From: Cellulophaga fucicola
GTDB lineage: Bacteria; Bacteroidota; Bacteroidia; Flavobacteriales; Flavobacteriaceae
Direction: 5' to 3'
DNA: 59,562 bases
Assembly: GCF_900119145.1 (NCBI RefSeq)
Contig: NZ_FPIY01000008.1
Location: forward strand, 1 to 59,562
Positions 7,756-14,969 of the stretch are shown piece after piece; positions within the stretch are counted from its first letter, which is position 1, and each line of letters begins with the position of its first letter. The position numbers and the translations under genes are program-made. A model generated the notes under the pieces. It did not search any database. It was not told the DNA's origin and saw nothing but the letters and a program-made list of their open reading frames with translations.

Positions 7756-8316
7756 ATGAAAAAATTATCAGTAAGCATTTTAGCATTAGTATTTTCTGTT
7801 GCAGCATTAACAGCTCAAGAAAAAAAAATTAACACAGAAACAAGTAACATTACTTGGAAAGGATATAAAGTAACAGGTTCTCATGAAGGTTCTTTAGATT
7901 TTAAAGAAGGCTCTTTAGTGTTTAAGAACGATAAATTATCTGCTGGTGAATTTGTAGTAGACATGACTACATTAACTGTTACAGATTTAGAAGGTGGTAT
8001 GAAAGGTAAATTAGAAGGCCATTTAAAGTCTGATGATTTCTTTAGTACTGAAAAAAATACAACTTCTAAATTAGTTTTTACTGTTGGTAAGGCTACAGGG
8101 AAAAATGCTTACGCAGCAAAAGGTAAATTAACTATAAAAGGTATTACTAAGCCAGTAGACTTTACAATATCTGTATATGGTAGTAAAGCAACAGCAAGCT
8201 TAAAAGTAGATAGAACAGATTTTGACATTAAATACAAGTCTGGTAGCTTTATAGAGAACTTAGGAGACAAAGCAATTTATGACGATTTTGATCTTGTTGT
8301 AGATTTACAATTCTAA
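7756..8316 (+). CDS. YceI family periplasmic lipocalin-like protein
   Basis: A 186-residue YceI-family protein with a signal peptide (residues 1-20, ending ALTAQ). The mature part has the family's beta-barrel repeats, including GYKVTGSHEGSLDFKEGSL near the start, LEGHLKSDDFFSTEKNTTSKL in the middle, and VDRTDFDIKYKSGSFIENLGDKAIYDDFDL at the end (cited in part). In characterised relatives the barrel binds a long polyisoprenoid or fatty amide. It should be in the periplasm. It is followed by a terminator at about 8336-8367. Confidence 0.9.
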   Translation: MKKLSVSILALVFSVAALTAQEKKINTETSNITWKGYKVTGSHEGSLDFKEGSLVFKNDKLSAGEFVVDMTTLTVTDLEGGMKGKLEGHLKSDDFFSTEKNTTSKLVFTVGKATGKNAYAAKGKLTIKGITKPVDFTISVYGSKATASLKVDRTDFDIKYKSGSFIENLGDKAIYDDFDLVVDLQF

Positions 8317-8335
8317 AACATACTTTAATATTGTT

Positions 8336-8367
8336 TTAAACCTCACTTTTGTGTGGTTTTTTATTTT
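8336..8367 (+). terminator. terminator after marR-yceI
   Basis: AAACCTCAC, loop TTTT, GTGTGGTTT (8 of 9 pairs), then a T-rich run. It lies 20 bases after the yceI stop and before the trp promoter, so it separates the two operons. Confidence 0.65.
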
Positions 8368-8381
8368 TTATGAAACTCTAG

Positions 8382-8412
8382 TTGGGTATTATAAAATTCC
8401 TTTATATATTTG
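8382..8412 (+). promoter_or_regulatory. trp operon promoter
   Basis: TTG at 8382-8384, 20 bases, then TATATTTG at 8405-8412, which is an exact match to TTG-N(19-21)-TAnnTTTG. The leader-peptide ATG begins only 6 bases after the last base of the -7 box. Transcription should therefore start at or within a base or two of the ATG, making the leader mRNA nearly leaderless. Confidence 0.75.
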
Positions 8413-8417
8413 ACCTA

Positions 8418-8471
8418 ATGAAAATAACAACTAACATATGGTGGTGGAACAACTTACGTCAAACGTCGTGA
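8418..8471 (+). CDS. trpL: trp operon leader peptide (three consecutive Trp codons)
   Basis: A 17-residue open frame, MKITTNIWWWNNLRQTS, ending in TGA at 8469-8471. Three TGG codons in a row (8439-8447) just before a Rho-independent terminator and the trpE start are the hallmark of a ribosome-controlled attenuator. Ribosomes would stall here when charged Trp-tRNA is scarce. The stop codon lies inside a segment (8465-8471, GTCGTGA) that can pair with 8513-8519 (TCACGAC), as needed for an antiterminator. It was recognised by codon content and position; its length is below normal gene-calling limits. Confidence 0.85.
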   Translation: MKITTNIWWWNNLRQTS

Positions 8472-8500
8472 GCAAAGCATCATTGTAATCATATACATAA

Positions 8501-8533
8501 AAGGCTTGTCTATCACGACAAGCCTTTTTTTTT
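8501..8533 (+). terminator. trp attenuator terminator
   Basis: A perfect 10-pair stem, AAGGCTTGTC (8501-8510), loop TATCAC, and GACAAGCCTT (8517-8526), running into nine T (8525-8533), 22 bases before trpE. The alternative pairing of 8465-8478 with 8504-8519 (GTCGTGA with TCACGAC, then GC, AA and GC pairs with two single-base bulges) would take up both arms and prevent termination. Confidence 0.85.
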
Positions 8534-8555
8534 ATTTAAAAATTTAAAGTTTAAG

Positions 8556-9953
8556 ATGAAATATAATCTAACATCACACTACAAAAAAATATTAGCAGAT
8601 ACTATTACTCCTGTTAGTATGTACTTAAAAATTAGAGATAAGTTTCCTAATAGCATTTTATTAGAAAGTAGTGACTACCACGCAAACAATAATAGTTTTT
8701 CTTATATCTGTTGCAACCCTATTGCTTCTATTAAAATAGAAAACGAAACAATACTAGAAAACTACCCAGATGGCACTAGCCAAACTACCGTTATAGATAA
8801 AACTGTAGATGTTGCCACTGTTCTACATAACTTTAGTACTAAGTTTAGTTCTTCTAATAATGACTTTAAATTTATAAACAATGGTCTTTTTGGATATATG
8901 GCTTATGATTCTGTTCGTTATTTTGAAGATGTAAACATTACCAAAAAGGATAATTCTATTGTTATACCAGATATGTATTATGCGGTATATAAGAATGTAA
9001 TTGCTGTTGATCATTTTAAAAATGAAGCATACATATTTGCACATACTTATAACACAGAAAATAACATTCCAGAAATAGAACAATTATTAAACGTAAGAGA
9101 TTTTGCTACTTACAATTTTTCTAAAACAGGAGAAGCAACATCTAACTTAACAGATAACGACTTTTTAGAACAGGTAGATTTAGCTAAAAAACATTGTCAG
9201 CGTGGAGATGTTTTTCAATTGGTATTGTCTAGAAGATTTTCTCAGGAATTTAAAGGAGACGAATTTAATGTATACCGTGCCTTAAGATCGGTAAATCCAT
9301 CACCTTACTTATTCTATTTTGATTATGGCGACTTTAAAATATTTGGAAGCTCACCAGAAGCACAAATTATAGTTAAAGATGGCAAAGCAGAGATACACCC
9401 AATCGCAGGTACATTTAAACGTACTGGTAATGACGAAAAAGATGCTGTTCTTGCTAAAGAGTTAACAGAAGATAACAAAGAAAATAGCGAACACGTAATG
9501 CTGGTAGATTTAGCCAGAAACGATTTAAGCAGAAACGGAAATACTGTTACGGTAGAAAATTATAGAGAGGTTCAGTTTTTCTCCCACGTAATTCACTTAG
9601 TATCTAAGGTTACAGGAATAAAGAAAAAAGACATTCCTACTATGAAGGTTGTTGCAGATACGTTCCCTGCTGGCACACTTAGTGGCGCACCTAAACATAT
9701 GGCTATGCAACTTATAGAAAAATACGAAAAAACAAGTCGTGGTTACTATGGTGGCGCAATTGGATTTATGGATTTTAACGGAAACTTTAATCACGCTATA
9801 ATGATTAGAACTTTTCTTAGTAAAAATCACCAACTACATTACCAAGCAGGCGCTGGTTTAGTTGCGGCATCTAACCCACAAGACGAACTACAAGAAACAT
9901 ACAATAAATTAGGAGCACTAACTAAAGCTTTAGAAATAGCTGAGAACATTTAA
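8556..9953 (+). CDS. trpE: anthranilate synthase component I
   Basis: A 465-residue chorismate-binding enzyme that makes anthranilate from chorismate and ammonia, the first step of tryptophan synthesis. The C-terminal chorismate-binding domain is intact, with motifs such as FQLVLSRRF, PSPYLFYFDYGDFKIFGSSP, IAGTFKRTGN, ELTEDNKENSEHVMLVDLARND and ADTFPAGTLSGAPK. It is followed 4 bases later by trpG, its glutaminase partner, and is the first structural gene behind the attenuator. The N-terminal domain would hold the tryptophan feedback site. Confidence 0.96.
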   Translation: MKYNLTSHYKKILADTITPVSMYLKIRDKFPNSILLESSDYHANNNSFSYICCNPIASIKIENETILENYPDGTSQTTVIDKTVDVATVLHNFSTKFSSSNNDFKFINNGLFGYMAYDSVRYFEDVNITKKDNSIVIPDMYYAVYKNVIAVDHFKNEAYIFAHTYNTENNIPEIEQLLNVRDFATYNFSKTGEATSNLTDNDFLEQVDLAKKHCQRGDVFQLVLSRRFSQEFKGDEFNVYRALRSVNPSPYLFYFDYGDFKIFGSSPEAQIIVKDGKAEIHPIAGTFKRTGNDEKDAVLAKELTEDNKENSEHVMLVDLARNDLSRNGNTVTVENYREVQFFSHVIHLVSKVTGIKKKDIPTMKVVADTFPAGTLSGAPKHMAMQLIEKYEKTSRGYYGGAIGFMDFNGNFNHAIMIRTFLSKNHQLHYQAGAGLVAASNPQDELQETYNKLGALTKALEIAENI

Positions 9954-9957
9954 GACG

Positions 9958-10521
9958 ATGAAAAAAATACTAGTTATAGATAATTACGACAGTTTTACAT
10001 ACAATTTAGTGCACTACCTAGAAGATTTAGATTGTGATGTTACAGTAAAACGAAACGACCAATTAACACTGAAAGAAGTAGATGCTTTTGAAAAAATAGT
10101 ACTTTCTCCAGGTCCAGGTATACCCGACGAGGCTGGTTTATTAAAACAAATAATAGCAAAATATGCACCTACTAAAACTATTTTAGGTGTTTGTTTAGGA
10201 CAACAAGCCATTGGCGAAGTTTTTGGCGGTTCTTTAATTAATTTAGAACAAGTTTACCACGGTATTGCTACCACTATTACAGTTATTAAAGACGATGTTT
10301 TATTTAATGGTTTAGGCAAAGAATTAAAAGTTGGTCGTTACCATTCTTGGGTTGTTAATCCAGATTTGCCAGAAGTTCTAGAAGCTACTTCTGTTGATGA
10401 AAACGGACAAATAATGTCTTTACGCCATAAGGCTTATGATGTTAACGCAGTACAGTTTCACCCAGAATCTGTATTAACACCAGAAGGAAAACAAATGCTA
10501 AAAAATTGGGTAAATAAGTAA
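9958..10521 (+). CDS. trpG: anthranilate synthase component II (glutamine amidotransferase)
   Basis: A 187-residue class I glutamine amidotransferase that supplies ammonia to TrpE. The triad is visible: the nucleophile Cys in GVCLGQQAIGE, and His and Glu in QFHPESVL. The N-terminal signature IDNYDSFTYNLVHYLE and the oxyanion segment LSPGPGIP are present. In many bacteria the same subunit also serves p-aminobenzoate synthase. No second glutaminase is in the window, so that possibility stays open. There is a gap of 47 bases to trpD. Confidence 0.95.
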   Translation: MKKILVIDNYDSFTYNLVHYLEDLDCDVTVKRNDQLTLKEVDAFEKIVLSPGPGIPDEAGLLKQIIAKYAPTKTILGVCLGQQAIGEVFGGSLINLEQVYHGIATTITVIKDDVLFNGLGKELKVGRYHSWVVNPDLPEVLEATSVDENGQIMSLRHKAYDVNAVQFHPESVLTPEGKQMLKNWVNK

Positions 10522-10568
10522 AATAGATCGATATCAAAATTTTACTTATTCATTAATAAAAATTAAAG

Positions 10569-11561
10569 ATGAAAACAATATTAAATAGATTAATTAATCA
10601 CGAAATTCTTGGAAAAGAAGATGCCAAAAATGTATTGGTAAACATTGCTAAGGGTGATTACAATACAAGTCAGATTGCAGCTTTCTTAACTGTTTATATG
10701 ATGCGTAGCGTTACTATTGAAGAGTTAGAAGGTTTTAGAGATGCATTACTAAACCTTTGCTTAGCTGTAGATTTATCTGCATATAACCCAGTAGATTTAT
10801 GTGGCACTGGTGGCGATGGTAAAGATACTTTTAACATTTCTACACTTGCCTCTTTTGTAACTGCGGGGGCTGGTATAAAAGTTACCAAGCACGGTAACTA
10901 TGGCGTATCTAGCAAATGTGGTAGTAGCAACGTAATGGAATCTTTAGGTATAAAATTTAGTAGTGATATTAGCTTTTTAGAAAAAACAATAGACCAAGCT
11001 GGTATTTGTGTATTACACGCACCACTTTTTCATCCAGCTATGAAAAACGTTGCACCAATACGTAAAGAGTTGGCAGTAAAAACATTCTTTAATATGTTAG
11101 GCCCCATGGTAAATCCTGCCTTTCCTAAAAACCAAATGGTGGGTGTTTTTAATTTAGAATTAGCTAGAATGTATGGCTACCTTTATCAAAATACAGATAA
11201 AAACTTTACCGTTTTACACGCCTTAGATGGGTATGATGAAATTAGCTTAACAGGGAACACAAAGACAATCTCTCGTTTATCAGAAAGTATGCTTAAACCA
11301 GAAGATTTTGGAGTACAAAAAATAAAACAATCAGATATTGTTGGCGGAGAAACCGTTGAAGATTCTGCTAAAATATTTGTAGACATCTTAAGCGGTAAAG
11401 GTACAGATCCACAAAACAATGTGGTTTGTGCTAATGCAGGTATAGCAATTGCTACTGTAGAAAATATAAGCCCTAGAGAAGGCTTTTTAAAAGCACAAGA
11501 ATCTTTGCGTAGTGGTAAAGGTTTAGAAGCATTAAAAAAATTACAAAAGCTAAGTGCATAA
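10569..11561 (+). CDS. trpD: anthranilate phosphoribosyltransferase
   Basis: A 330-residue enzyme that transfers phosphoribose from PRPP to anthranilate. The glycine-rich PRPP loop CGTGGDGKDTFNIS and the segment KHGNYGVSSKCGSSNVMESLG are intact, and the length is normal for the family. The stop TAA is directly followed by the ATG of trpC, so translation is probably coupled. Confidence 0.96.
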   Translation: MKTILNRLINHEILGKEDAKNVLVNIAKGDYNTSQIAAFLTVYMMRSVTIEELEGFRDALLNLCLAVDLSAYNPVDLCGTGGDGKDTFNISTLASFVTAGAGIKVTKHGNYGVSSKCGSSNVMESLGIKFSSDISFLEKTIDQAGICVLHAPLFHPAMKNVAPIRKELAVKTFFNMLGPMVNPAFPKNQMVGVFNLELARMYGYLYQNTDKNFTVLHALDGYDEISLTGNTKTISRLSESMLKPEDFGVQKIKQSDIVGGETVEDSAKIFVDILSGKGTDPQNNVVCANAGIAIATVENISPREGFLKAQESLRSGKGLEALKKLQKLSA

Positions 11562-12344
11562 ATGGATATCTTAGAAAAAATAGTACTAGACAAACGCAAG
11601 GAGGTGGATTTAAGAAAATCTCTTATTCCTGTATCGCAATTAGAAGCTTCGGTTTTGTTTAACAGACAAACTAGTTCTTTAGCTAGCGCATTAAAAAATA
11701 GTACCTCTGGCATTATTGCCGAACACAAAAGAAGGTCTCCTTCTAAAGCTGTAATAAATAATAGCTTATCTGTGCAAGATGTTGCTACTGGTTACCAAGA
11801 CGCTGGCGTTTGTGGTATGTCTGTTTTAACAGATGGCAAATATTTTGGAGGCTCATTAGACGATTTACTAACTGCAAGAGCAGCTGTACAAATGCCGCTA
11901 TTACGCAAAGAGTTTATTATAGATGAATACCAAATACTAGAAGCTAAAGCCTACGGAGCAGATGTTATTTTATTAATAGCTGCTATATTAACTAGAGAAG
12001 AAATAAAACAATTCTCTGAATTTGCAAAAAGCTTACATTTAGATGTTTTACTAGAGGTACATAACCAAGAAGAATTGCACAAGTCCATTATGCCTAGTTT
12101 AGATATGTTAGGCGTAAACAACCGTAATTTAAAGACTTTTACCGTTAGTCTAGAGACAAGTAAATCTTTATCTACTTTAATACCAAACGATTTTGTAAAA
12201 GTATCTGAAAGTGGTATTAGTAACATAGGAGCTATTAAAGAATTACAACCATATGGCTACAAAGGTTTTTTAATAGGTGAAAATTTTATGAAAACAGATA
12301 ACCCTGGCAAGAGTGCTACTAACTTTATAACATCTTTAATTTAA
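11562..12344 (+). CDS. trpC: indole-3-glycerol phosphate synthase
   Basis: A 260-residue TIM-barrel enzyme that decarboxylates and closes the ring of CdRP to give indole-3-glycerol phosphate. The catalytic/substrate segments IIAEHKRRSPSK, LRKEFIIDEYQI, LLEVHNQEE, GVNNRNLKTF and VSESGI are visible in barrel order. It is not fused to TrpF, unlike in E. coli. Its stop codon shares one base with the trpF start. Confidence 0.96.
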   Translation: MDILEKIVLDKRKEVDLRKSLIPVSQLEASVLFNRQTSSLASALKNSTSGIIAEHKRRSPSKAVINNSLSVQDVATGYQDAGVCGMSVLTDGKYFGGSLDDLLTARAAVQMPLLRKEFIIDEYQILEAKAYGADVILLIAAILTREEIKQFSEFAKSLHLDVLLEVHNQEELHKSIMPSLDMLGVNNRNLKTFTVSLETSKSLSTLIPNDFVKVSESGISNIGAIKELQPYGYKGFLIGENFMKTDNPGKSATNFITSLI

Positions 12345-12985
12345 TGAGGCTGAAAGTTTGTGGTATGAAGTATTTAGAGAATATGGAGGCAGTGGCAGCA
12401 TTGCAACCAGACTATTTAGGCTTTATATTTTGGGAACCTTCATCTAGGTATTTTAATGGCAAAATGGGAAATATCCCAGATGGCATTAAAAAAGTTGGTG
12501 TTTTTGTTGATGCTGATTTAGATTATGTTGTAGATAAAATTAACCAATATAATTTAGAAGCTGTACAACTACACGGTAAAGAATCTCCTGAGTTTTGTAA
12601 AGGATTACGAAATTCTAGTCTTGGATTAAAAGGGAAACAACCACAGATTATAAAAGTTTTTTCTATTAAAGATAGTTTTGACTTTAGCATCCTTACTCCT
12701 TTTGAAAAAGTATGCGACTATTTTTTGTTTGATACTAAAGGAAAATTGCCTGGTGGTAATGGTTATACTTTTAACTGGTCTGTTTTAGAAAATTACACAT
12801 CTACCAAACCTTATTTTTTAAGTGGTGGTATTGGCGTAAAAGATGTAGATAAGGTTAAATCTTTTTTACACACACCAGCATCTAAATACTGTGTTGCACT
12901 AGATGTAAATAGTAGTTTTGAAATAGAACCAGGACTAAAAAATATTGAAAAATTAAAAGAATTTAAAACAGCATTAAGTATCTAA
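12344..12985 (+). CDS. trpF: phosphoribosylanthranilate isomerase
   Basis: A 213-residue TIM-barrel isomerase converting PRA to CdRP. The catalytic Cys is in the N-terminal motif LKVCGMKY and the general acid Asp is in the segment DYFLFDTKGKLPGGNG. VQLHGKESPEF and LSGGIGVKDV (phosphate site) are also seen. The start overlaps the trpC stop by one base (TAATG). It is followed by a 31-base gap to trpB. Confidence 0.95.
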   Translation: MRLKVCGMKYLENMEAVAALQPDYLGFIFWEPSSRYFNGKMGNIPDGIKKVGVFVDADLDYVVDKINQYNLEAVQLHGKESPEFCKGLRNSSLGLKGKQPQIIKVFSIKDSFDFSILTPFEKVCDYFLFDTKGKLPGGNGYTFNWSVLENYTSTKPYFLSGGIGVKDVDKVKSFLHTPASKYCVALDVNSSFEIEPGLKNIEKLKEFKTALSI

Positions 12986-13016
12986 ACTAAGTACTTAAAA
13001 CTTAATACTAATTCAG

Positions 13017-14198
13017 ATGAATTATAATGTAACAGAAAAAGGATATTACGGAACATTTGGCGGTGCCTATATTCCAGAAATGTTATATCCTAACGTAGAA
13101 AATCTACGTAAAAATTACCTTAAAGTTATGGCAGAGCCAGACTTTAAAGCAGAGTTCGATCAGCTTTTAAAAGATTACGTAGGCAGACCTTCTCCTTTGT
13201 ATTTCGCAAAAAGATTATCAGAAAAATACAACACAAAAGTATATTTAAAAAGAGAAGACCTTAACCATACTGGTGCACATAAGGTTAACAATACTATTGG
13301 TCAGATTTTAATGGCCAAAAAATTAGGCAAGCAACGTATTATTGCAGAGACTGGCGCTGGTCAACACGGTGTTGCCACAGCTACTGTTTGCGCTCTAATG
13401 GGTATGGATTGCGTAGTTTATATGGGGGAGATTGATATTGCTCGCCAAGCACCAAACGTTGCTCGTATGAAAATGCTAGGCGCAGAAGTTAGACCTGCTC
13501 TTTCTGGCAGTAAAACACTTAAAGATGCAACCAACGAAGCTATTCGTGACTGGATTAACAACCCTGTAGACACACATTACATTATTGGTTCTGCTATTGG
13601 CCCGCATCCTTACCCAGATATGGTTACTAGATTTCAATCTATTATATCCGAAGAAATAAAGTGGCAACTAAAAGAAAAAGAAGGTCGTGAAAATCCCGAT
13701 TATGTAGTTGCTTGTATTGGTGGCGGTAGTAACGCTGCTGGTACATATTATCACTTTCTACACGAAGAAGAAGTTGGTATTATTGCTGTAGAAGCTGCTG
13801 GTAAAGGTATAAATTCTGGAGAAAGTGCTGCTACATCTGCACTTGGTAAAGAAGGTGTTATACACGGCTGTAAAACATTACTAATGCAAACCAATGACGG
13901 ACAAATTACAGAGCCCTACTCTATTTCTGCAGGGTTAGATTATCCTGGAGTTGGACCATTGCATGCGCACTTATACAAATCTGGAAGAGGAGAATTTTAT
14001 TCCGCTACAGATGATGAGGCAATGCAATCTGGTTTAGAATTAACAAAATTAGAAGGTATTATACCTGCTATAGAAAGCAGTCACGCTTTAGCTATTTTTA
14101 AACACAAAACTTTTAAACCAGACGATGTAGTTGTTATAAGCTTATCTGGTCGTGGAGATAAAGATTTAGATAATTACATTAAATATTTTAACTTATAA
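13017..14198 (+). CDS. trpB: tryptophan synthase beta chain
   Basis: A 393-residue PLP enzyme that joins indole and L-serine to form tryptophan. The PLP-binding Lys lies in LNHTGAHKVNNTIGQ, the catalytic Glu region is ETGAGQHGVATAT, and the phosphate-binding loop is GGGSNAAG. All are canonical for TrpB1, as expected for a gene next to trpA. There is a gap of 9 bases to trpA. Confidence 0.97.
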   Translation: MNYNVTEKGYYGTFGGAYIPEMLYPNVENLRKNYLKVMAEPDFKAEFDQLLKDYVGRPSPLYFAKRLSEKYNTKVYLKREDLNHTGAHKVNNTIGQILMAKKLGKQRIIAETGAGQHGVATATVCALMGMDCVVYMGEIDIARQAPNVARMKMLGAEVRPALSGSKTLKDATNEAIRDWINNPVDTHYIIGSAIGPHPYPDMVTRFQSIISEEIKWQLKEKEGRENPDYVVACIGGGSNAAGTYYHFLHEEEVGIIAVEAAGKGINSGESAATSALGKEGVIHGCKTLLMQTNDGQITEPYSISAGLDYPGVGPLHAHLYKSGRGEFYSATDDEAMQSGLELTKLEGIIPAIESSHALAIFKHKTFKPDDVVVISLSGRGDKDLDNYIKYFNL

Positions 14199-14207
14199 AA
14201 TTGTATA

Positions 14208-14969
14208 ATGAATAGAATTAATCAAAAAATGCAAGAAGACAAAAAACTTCTTTCATTGTACTTTACTGCAGGTTATCCAGAGCTTAACAACACAGTTAAA
14301 ATAATTAAAGATTTAGAGGCCAGCGGTATAGATATGATTGAAATTGGATTGCCTTTTAGCGATCCGTTAGCAGATGGACCTACTATACAAAACAGTTCTA
14401 CTATTGCGCTTAAAAATGGTATGACCACCAAATTACTTTTTGAGCAATTAAAAGATATACGTAAAACAGTTTCTATACCATTAATTATAATGGGGTACTT
14501 TAACCCAATGTTACAATACGGTGTTGAAGCATTTTGCGCAAAATGCGCAGAAATTGGTATAGATGGTTTAATTATGCCAGATTTACCTTTGGCTGTTTAT
14601 CAAGATGAATACGAGGCTATTTTTAAAAAACACAACCTAAAAAACATCTTTTTAATTACACCACAAACTAGTGACGAACGTATTAAGGAAATTGATAATG
14701 CATCTGATGCATTTATTTATATGGTAAGTTCTGCTAGTGTTACAGGTTCTAAAACTGGTTTTGGACAAGAACAAACAGATTATTTTGAGCGTATTGCGAG
14801 TATGAATCTTAAAAATCCGCAAATTATAGGATTTGGTATTAATAATAACGAAACCTATACACAAGCTACAAAAGAAACAAAAGGAGCAATTATTGGCTCT
14901 GCATTTATAAAACACCTAACAGAAAATGGTGCAGATACAATTTCAGATTTTGTACAAAAAATAAGATAA
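14208..14969 (+). CDS. trpA: tryptophan synthase alpha chain
   Basis: A 253-residue TIM-barrel lyase that cleaves indole-3-glycerol phosphate to indole, which is channelled to TrpB. The catalytic Glu is in IEIGLPFSDPLADGPTIQ and the catalytic Asp in GLIMPDLPL. The family phosphate loop (VSSASVTGSKTG, then GFGINN) is present. It is the last gene of the operon, followed by a strong terminator. Confidence 0.97.
   Translation: MNRINQKMQEDKKLLSLYFTAGYPELNNTVKIIKDLEASGIDMIEIGLPFSDPLADGPTIQNSSTIALKNGMTTKLLFEQLKDIRKTVSIPLIIMGYFNPMLQYGVEAFCAKCAEIGIDGLIMPDLPLAVYQDEYEAIFKKHNLKNIFLITPQTSDERIKEIDNASDAFIYMVSSASVTGSKTGFGQEQTDYFERIASMNLKNPQIIGFGINNNETYTQATKETKGAIIGSAFIKHLTENGADTISDFVQKIR

Follow-up and report, generated by a model that had tools for sequence, protein, structure and literature searches.

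The trpL attenuator of Escherichia coli combines tandem Trp codons, the alternation of 1:2, 2:3 and 3:4 pairings and a terminator followed by a T-run. In our study, a similar arrangement has been found upstream of the trpEGDCFBA operon of Cellulophaga fucicola, whereas this element differs from trpL in its three tandem Trp codons, in its other sequences, in its Bacteroidetes promoter and in a predicted 5' UTR of 0-1 nt. Sinorhizobium meliloti is an Alphaproteobacterium. The attenuator RNA of its trpL/rnTrpL has its 5' end at the ATG of the leader ORF according to the available text of PMC7298713, whereas in our case a transcription start at the ATG is predicted from the sequence. Closer relatives are found in Flavobacterium psychrophilum, which belongs to the same phylum and probably to the same family; leader-peptide attenuation has been proposed for its amino-acid operons (PMC9723704) and a trp leader has been reported 5' of its trp operon (PMC6414381), and the available passages of both papers, which place these attenuators before amino-acid operons, make no mention of a leaderless type. 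The closest described system is the Bacteroid-trp motif (RF01692), catalogued as a table entry in Weinberg 2010 (PMC2864571), with which our element shares sequence, hairpin, Trp codons and the location upstream of trp genes. The system is thus ordinary in kind, and its less expected parts are the predicted leaderless start and an apparent coupling between the trp and his leaders.

The window, i.e. the whole stretch of 59,562 nucleotides that was analysed, was found to match RF01692 at 8398-8510 on the forward strand with 61.6 bits (gathering score 49), over positions 1-131 of the 131 of the model. As the motif has already been described, this match assigns the element to a catalogued kind and it is not new. 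Other, weak matches to Rfam, rnk_leader and MicC among them, were rejected as they lie far below their gathering scores. The position upstream of tryptophan genes holds here also, as trpE (8556-9953; Pfam Chorismate_bind and Anth_synt_I_N) is the first gene of the controlled operon and is followed by six more, trpG, trpD, trpC, trpF, trpB and trpA (9958-14969), all seven genes being assigned by Pfam and on the forward strand like the other features of the locus given below. RF01692 was found once in the own genome, in 275 of the 397 genomes sampled from the family, in 42 of the 395 genomes of a phylum sample (35 of these 42 belonging to the same family) and in 27 of the 395 genomes of a class sample (13 of these 27 of the same family), in searches which lose weak matches.

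The analysis of the leader has shown three features expected of a ribosome-mediated trp attenuator, namely a short ORF with tandem Trp codons, an intrinsic terminator located after this ORF and ahead of the first gene, and a mutually exclusive antiterminator, supported by covariation. The leader peptide MKITTNIWWWNNLRQTS is encoded at 8418-8471; its three tandem TGG codons, the putative sensing site, were found at 8439-8447 and its TGA stop at 8469-8471, exactly as the earlier note had read them. The terminator, which had been placed at 8501-8533, is likewise present and spans 8499-8533, with a 12-pair stem of 8499-8510 and 8517-8528, a loop of 6 nt (8511-8516) and a T-run to 8533. It was obtained both from folding and from a terminator scan, for which 8499-8528 was the sole site within 8000-9000 (0.3 expected in shuffles). 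The GTCGTGA of 8465-8471 is fully complementary to the TCACGAC of 8513-8519 as had been proposed, and these two stretches lie in the 5' arm (region 2, 8465-8478) and the 3' arm (region 3, 8504-8519) of the antiterminator, the latter comprising the terminator 5' arm, its loop and the first bases of its 3' arm. The proposed extension of this helix over the left arm of the terminator was also found, as 8475-8478 paired with 8504-8507 in the minimum free energy (MFE) structure, but it crosses an internal loop and not quite the two bulges which had been described. The duplex of 8463-8480 with 8502-8519 has an energy of -14.8 kcal/mol, a value reached by 5 of 1000 mononucleotide shuffles of its 5' strand (mean -7.2, sd 2.3).

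These parts suggest the following mechanism. RNA polymerase probably initiates at 8417 or 8418, so that the leader ORF would lie at or adjoin the 5' end. In the presence of charged tRNA-Trp, the ribosome would reach the stop codon at 8469-8471 and cover 8465-8478; the emerging 8499-8510 could then pair with 8517-8528 and transcription would end in the T-run. Under a shortage of charged tRNA-Trp, the ribosome would halt on the TGG codons at 8439-8447 and leave 8465-8478 free to pair with 8504-8519 before the terminator 3' arm exists, and the polymerase would continue into trpE. A 1:2-type hairpin, formed by 8437-8446 with 8478-8487 and an inner helix of 8453-8458 with 8467-8472, was present in the MFE structure of the full leader as well as of the RNA ending at 8510, and it partly coincides with the hairpin in the RF01692 model. 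In the absence of a ribosome this hairpin (8437-8487) would mask the antiterminator arm at 8467-8472, and the terminator would be expected to form.

Folding with blocked stretches, which the earlier note had suggested as a check, gave the expected switch when the RNA ended at 8519. With 8418-8460 blocked, the antiterminator was the MFE structure (-15.5 kcal/mol; 8465-8471 with 8513-8519 and 8475-8478 with 8504-8507), and with 8452-8484 blocked it was absent from the MFE structure. The full-length RNA, on the other hand, gave the terminator as MFE structure under every ribosome scenario tried, and hence the switch must be kinetic. When no ribosome is present and the RNA ends at 8516 or 8519, 8475-8478 and 8441-8448 are paired in the MFE structure with portions of the loop and 5' arm of the terminator. 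In the stop-codon scenario, the RNA ending at 8519 forms a weak helix (-6.9) from 8441 onward with 8507-8516. The default state is therefore less clean than in the text-book scheme, and we cannot place the modelled no-ribosome structure of the RNA ending at 8516 or 8519 in the proposed scheme.

The comparison with relatives has covered 186 loci, namely 150 matches listed from the family sample (the weaker ones among its 275 genomes were left out), 25 from the phylum sample and 11 from the class sample; several genera are present more than once and the counts over these loci are thus not independent. The conservation of the Trp codons in relatives, on which the earlier note had made its reading depend, was confirmed, as WWW is present in 181 of the 186 loci and WW in the other 5. 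The distance from the start to these codons is also kept; WWW is preceded by 7-9 residues in 181 of 186 loci, and the Trp run follows after 8 residues in 167 of 186. The terminator was found in 185 of the 186 loci, the exception (L085) being cut by a contig end, and the antiterminator core, taken as TCGTGA or TCGTAA, was recognised in 173 of the 185 loci with a terminator. The last Trp codon ends 18-19 nt before this core in 159 of the 173 loci.

Covariation was analysed in an alignment of 62 rows, 30 of them picked for divergence; as core and terminator are near-invariant in most of the family, the covariation rests on the divergent loci. Changes on both sides were found in 8 of the 10 terminator pairs tested, with 98.5% of cells paired, whereas versions slid out of register had 15.2-60.3% of cells paired and 1-4 pairs with two-sided changes. 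The antiterminator has two-sided changes in 5 of 7 pairs and 88.1% of its cells are paired; sliding it by 1-3 columns lowers the paired cells to 11.8-54.9% and leaves 1-4 pairs that change on both sides. Its covariation score was reached by 0 of 500 shuffles and its number of pairs changing on both sides by 1 of 500. The covariation which the earlier note had called for between 8465-8471 and 8513-8519 was thus seen in 5 of the 7 pairs, but the outermost pair, G8465-C8519, is unpaired in 28 of the 62 rows. Further, an alignment-free test was made on 19 divergent loci whose 3' arms are distinct and lack TCACGA. The cognate arms gave a mean of -14.0 kcal/mol and the permuted arms one of -11.0 (sd 0.59), none of 20,000 permutations being as low as the cognate set, and the cognate arms were better than the non-cognate mean in 16 of the 19 loci; in L094, L183 and L186 they were no better. 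Together, the comparative data support ribosome-mediated transcription attenuation in evolutionary terms. With WWW kept, with the spacing from Trp codons to core, and with compensatory changes in both helices, this mechanism, as the earlier note had suggested, is the best-supported reading, and we hold it highly probable that the element attenuates transcription of the trpEGDCFBA operon under the control of the translating ribosome.

The position of the stop codon was found to vary. Its first base lies 3 nt after the start of the core, and so inside it, in 101 of the 173 loci, 8 nt after the start in 32 and 6 nt before it in 31. The stop codon within the antiterminator arm, described earlier as a neat version of the classical mechanism, is accordingly one of three common arrangements, and as a conserved, essential design it was rejected. 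In 171 of the 173 loci, the stop begins no more than 9 nt ahead of the core start and no more than 8 nt behind it, and at these distances the core would be covered by a ribosome terminating there. This coverage by the ribosome at the stop codon, as far as can be judged from the sequences, is the conserved property. TCGTGA is outside the leader-peptide frame in 37 of 165 loci, which, with the varied stop position, indicates that the core is conserved as RNA and not for the peptide.

In promoters of Flavobacterium, the consensus TAnnTTTG is located at -12 to -5 and transcription starts 4-5 nt downstream of it, as given in the available text of PMC6847099 and PMC9723704. Upstream of the leader peptide, a -7 box of this Bacteroidetes sigma-A type, TATATTTG, is present at 8405-8412, and a -33 TTG element lies 20 nt upstream of it at 8382-8384, in a spacing that is kept in relatives. 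Only 5 nt separate the end of the box from the leader ATG. Transcription is therefore predicted to begin at 8417 or 8418, with a 5' UTR of 0-1 nt, a point not raised in the earlier note, and in this lineage translation of the leader peptide seems to set in with the first base of the mRNA. In the accessible portions of the open-licence literature, no leaderless attenuator was seen described for Bacteroidetes.

The gap between box and ATG was counted with a PWM in the 186 loci (the box scores <=8 bits in 10 of them) and has two peaks, exactly 5 nt in 29 loci and 14-23 nt in 116. A gap of 4-6 nt was found in 33 loci and one of 7-13 nt in 29, and 8 loci are elsewhere or doubtful. Two boxes of <=8 bits (L014, L019) have the 5-nt gap and are counted among the 29, whereas the doubtful L090 (gap 3) and L094 (gap 2) are included in the 35 short-gap loci (<=6 nt) and not in the 29 or the 33. 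The -33 TTG at a spacer of 19-20 is present in 28 of these 35 loci and in 93 of 114 long-gap loci. The 29 spacers of five nucleotides comprise 20 different sequences. A tree of TrpE was built with 96 rows, 11 of 107 loci being left out (3 lacked a TrpE match and 8 had <300 aligned residues); forty loci were fetched for it, mainly with short or intermediate gaps. On this tree the 33 short-gap loci require 8 changes, at least 5 of which are forced by starred branches, and this count is approximate as the tree is a quick one with some long branches and the loci were chosen by gap. The TrpE clade of the window has exactly 5 nt in 22 of its 25 rows (7, 7 and 8 in the others) and a second clade has 5-6 nt in 6 of 6, while in the long-gap clades the distance varies from 14 to 20 nt; the persistence at 5 nt in the clade of the window therefore indicates a constraint. 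In the heavily sampled genus g128, presumably Flavobacterium, the trp gaps are 16-20 nt and the leaders are not leaderless.

The same attenuator could have an ordinary 5' UTR, if it were transcribed from another promoter further upstream, and leaderless mRNAs are indeed a minority in flavobacteria (5.5% of the 890 CDSs of F. psychrophilum for which a start was assigned, in the available text of PMC9723704). We consider this unlikely, since the box with its TTG element at the proper distance is present, the box stands exactly 5 nt before the ATG in 29 of 186 loci despite the 20 different spacer sequences, and the clade of the window keeps to this distance so closely. If the prediction of a leaderless start holds, the leaderless and the leadered genera would form a natural experiment on the time of ribosome loading and attenuation, in a phylum which initiates translation without Shine-Dalgarno sequences.

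The his leaders were compared in 60 genomes picked by their trp gap, with HisG found in 58 of them. A His-rich leader was found upstream of hisG in 57 of these 58 genomes and was not found in G364. The his boxes, which were picked by a simple ad hoc score and are often imperfect (TAnTTTTA), lie <=9 nt from the ATG in 20 of 22 genomes with a trp gap of 4-6, in 6 of 17 with a gap of 7-13 and in 1 of 18 with a gap >=14. For G108 and G203, the boxes taken at 14 and 13 nt have equal-scoring alternatives at 8 and 7 nt, and both genomes are counted as exceptions, G586 is the reverse exception, and G317 has no good his box in the scored range. The trp and his gaps are correlated with a Spearman rho of 0.70 (n=57), a value inflated by shared ancestry.

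The whole-genome counts of boxes before ATG codons are crude, as many of the ATGs matched are not starts. In the own genome, TAHHTTTG-N5-ATG was found 57 times vs 112 in the reversed control, i.e. with no excess. In five trp-leaderless genomes summed, TATATTTG-N4-8-ATG gave 132 vs 120 in the control and TATATTTG-N16-20-ATG 188 vs 108, and in five leadered genomes summed the respective counts were 188 vs 116 and 289 vs 105. Leaderlessness throughout the genome is hence unsupported by the own-genome and ten-genome counts, and since these crude counts show no overall surplus of short gaps in the short-gap genomes, the trait would seem to be confined to attenuator leaders, which is suggestive only. 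We see an even chance that in a group of Flavobacteriaceae genera to which this one belongs the trp leader (box 5 nt before the ATG) and the his leader (7-8 nt) are specifically leaderless while ordinary genes have normal 5' UTRs; the trp ATG is then predicted at the transcription start and the his ATG about 2-4 nt away from it. If true, this could be speculated to reflect selection for ribosome loading once the 5' end emerges, with translation and transcription starting in step, in bacteria without Shine-Dalgarno sequences.

The own genome was also observed to carry further leaders of this kind. A his attenuator lies upstream of hisG in C8 (L221, reverse complement, about 1189-1301), with the leader MRNNNTHHHHFTPCYQAS followed by an 11-pair terminator and T-run and with an imperfect box 7 nt before the ATG. 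A probable Phe/Tyr attenuator in C12 (L222, reverse complement, about 1327-1449) has the leader MNTRYFWNGFYFYFFFKRGAGLL before a terminator and stands upstream of a gene with a prephenate dehydratase domain, and a probable branched-chain attenuator upstream of ilvD in C8 (L223, about 1045-1165) has the leader MKTNNIIIIVLVIIISLWG followed by a 17-pair terminator. Leaderlessness could not be extended to the phe leader, in which no convincing box near the ATG was seen by eye, or to the ilv leader, in which the eye found only an imperfect box 8 nt from the ATG.

Instead of stalling on its Trp codons, the ribosome or the RNA might respond to free tryptophan, by nascent peptide arrest as in TnaC, by TRAP or by a T-box, and Trp-rich peptides are known to be also able to arrest ribosomes. 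Such a sensor is very improbable here, as the peptide after WWW and the position of the stop vary in relatives, unlike what is expected of an arrest peptide, and RF01692 alone reaches the Rfam gathering score in the window, where neither a T-box nor a tryptophan-binding riboswitch was detected at that score; none was among the five weaker Rfam matches in 8200-8700 either. Just past the yceI-like gene (end 8316), a hairpin with a T-run was read from the sequence at 8338-8369 (5+3 pairs, one mismatch; absent from the output of the terminator scan), which is probably the terminator of yceI itself. The idea that the terminator at 8499-8528 merely ends yceI-like transcription and that the short ORF is accidental would suit its place between two co-directional genes, but it can practically be dismissed, because the hairpin at 8338-8369 probably makes a second terminator needless, and different genera share WWW, the spacing and the antiterminator, with compensatory changes.

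Attenuation by the ribosome being preferred, a motif that has been listed as a leader RNA gains evolutionary support for its mechanism of attenuation. The RF01692 match does not extend past 8510, where the terminator 5' arm finishes; the model is therefore without the terminator loop and 3' arm and omits most of the terminator. Moreover, its first 20 positions correspond to 8398-8417, over the -7 box, and it thus takes in promoter sequence; if the leaderless prediction holds, 8398-8417 would be untranscribed here (8417 possibly excepted). A model with boundaries corrected at 8398-8417 and 8511-8533 may detect more divergent members. Outside the family, the attenuator was often seen, by eye from the translation, to precede another first trp gene, which is trpB-like in L032, L037, L053, L172, L176, L177, L181 and L189 and trpD-like in L174, L184 and L187.
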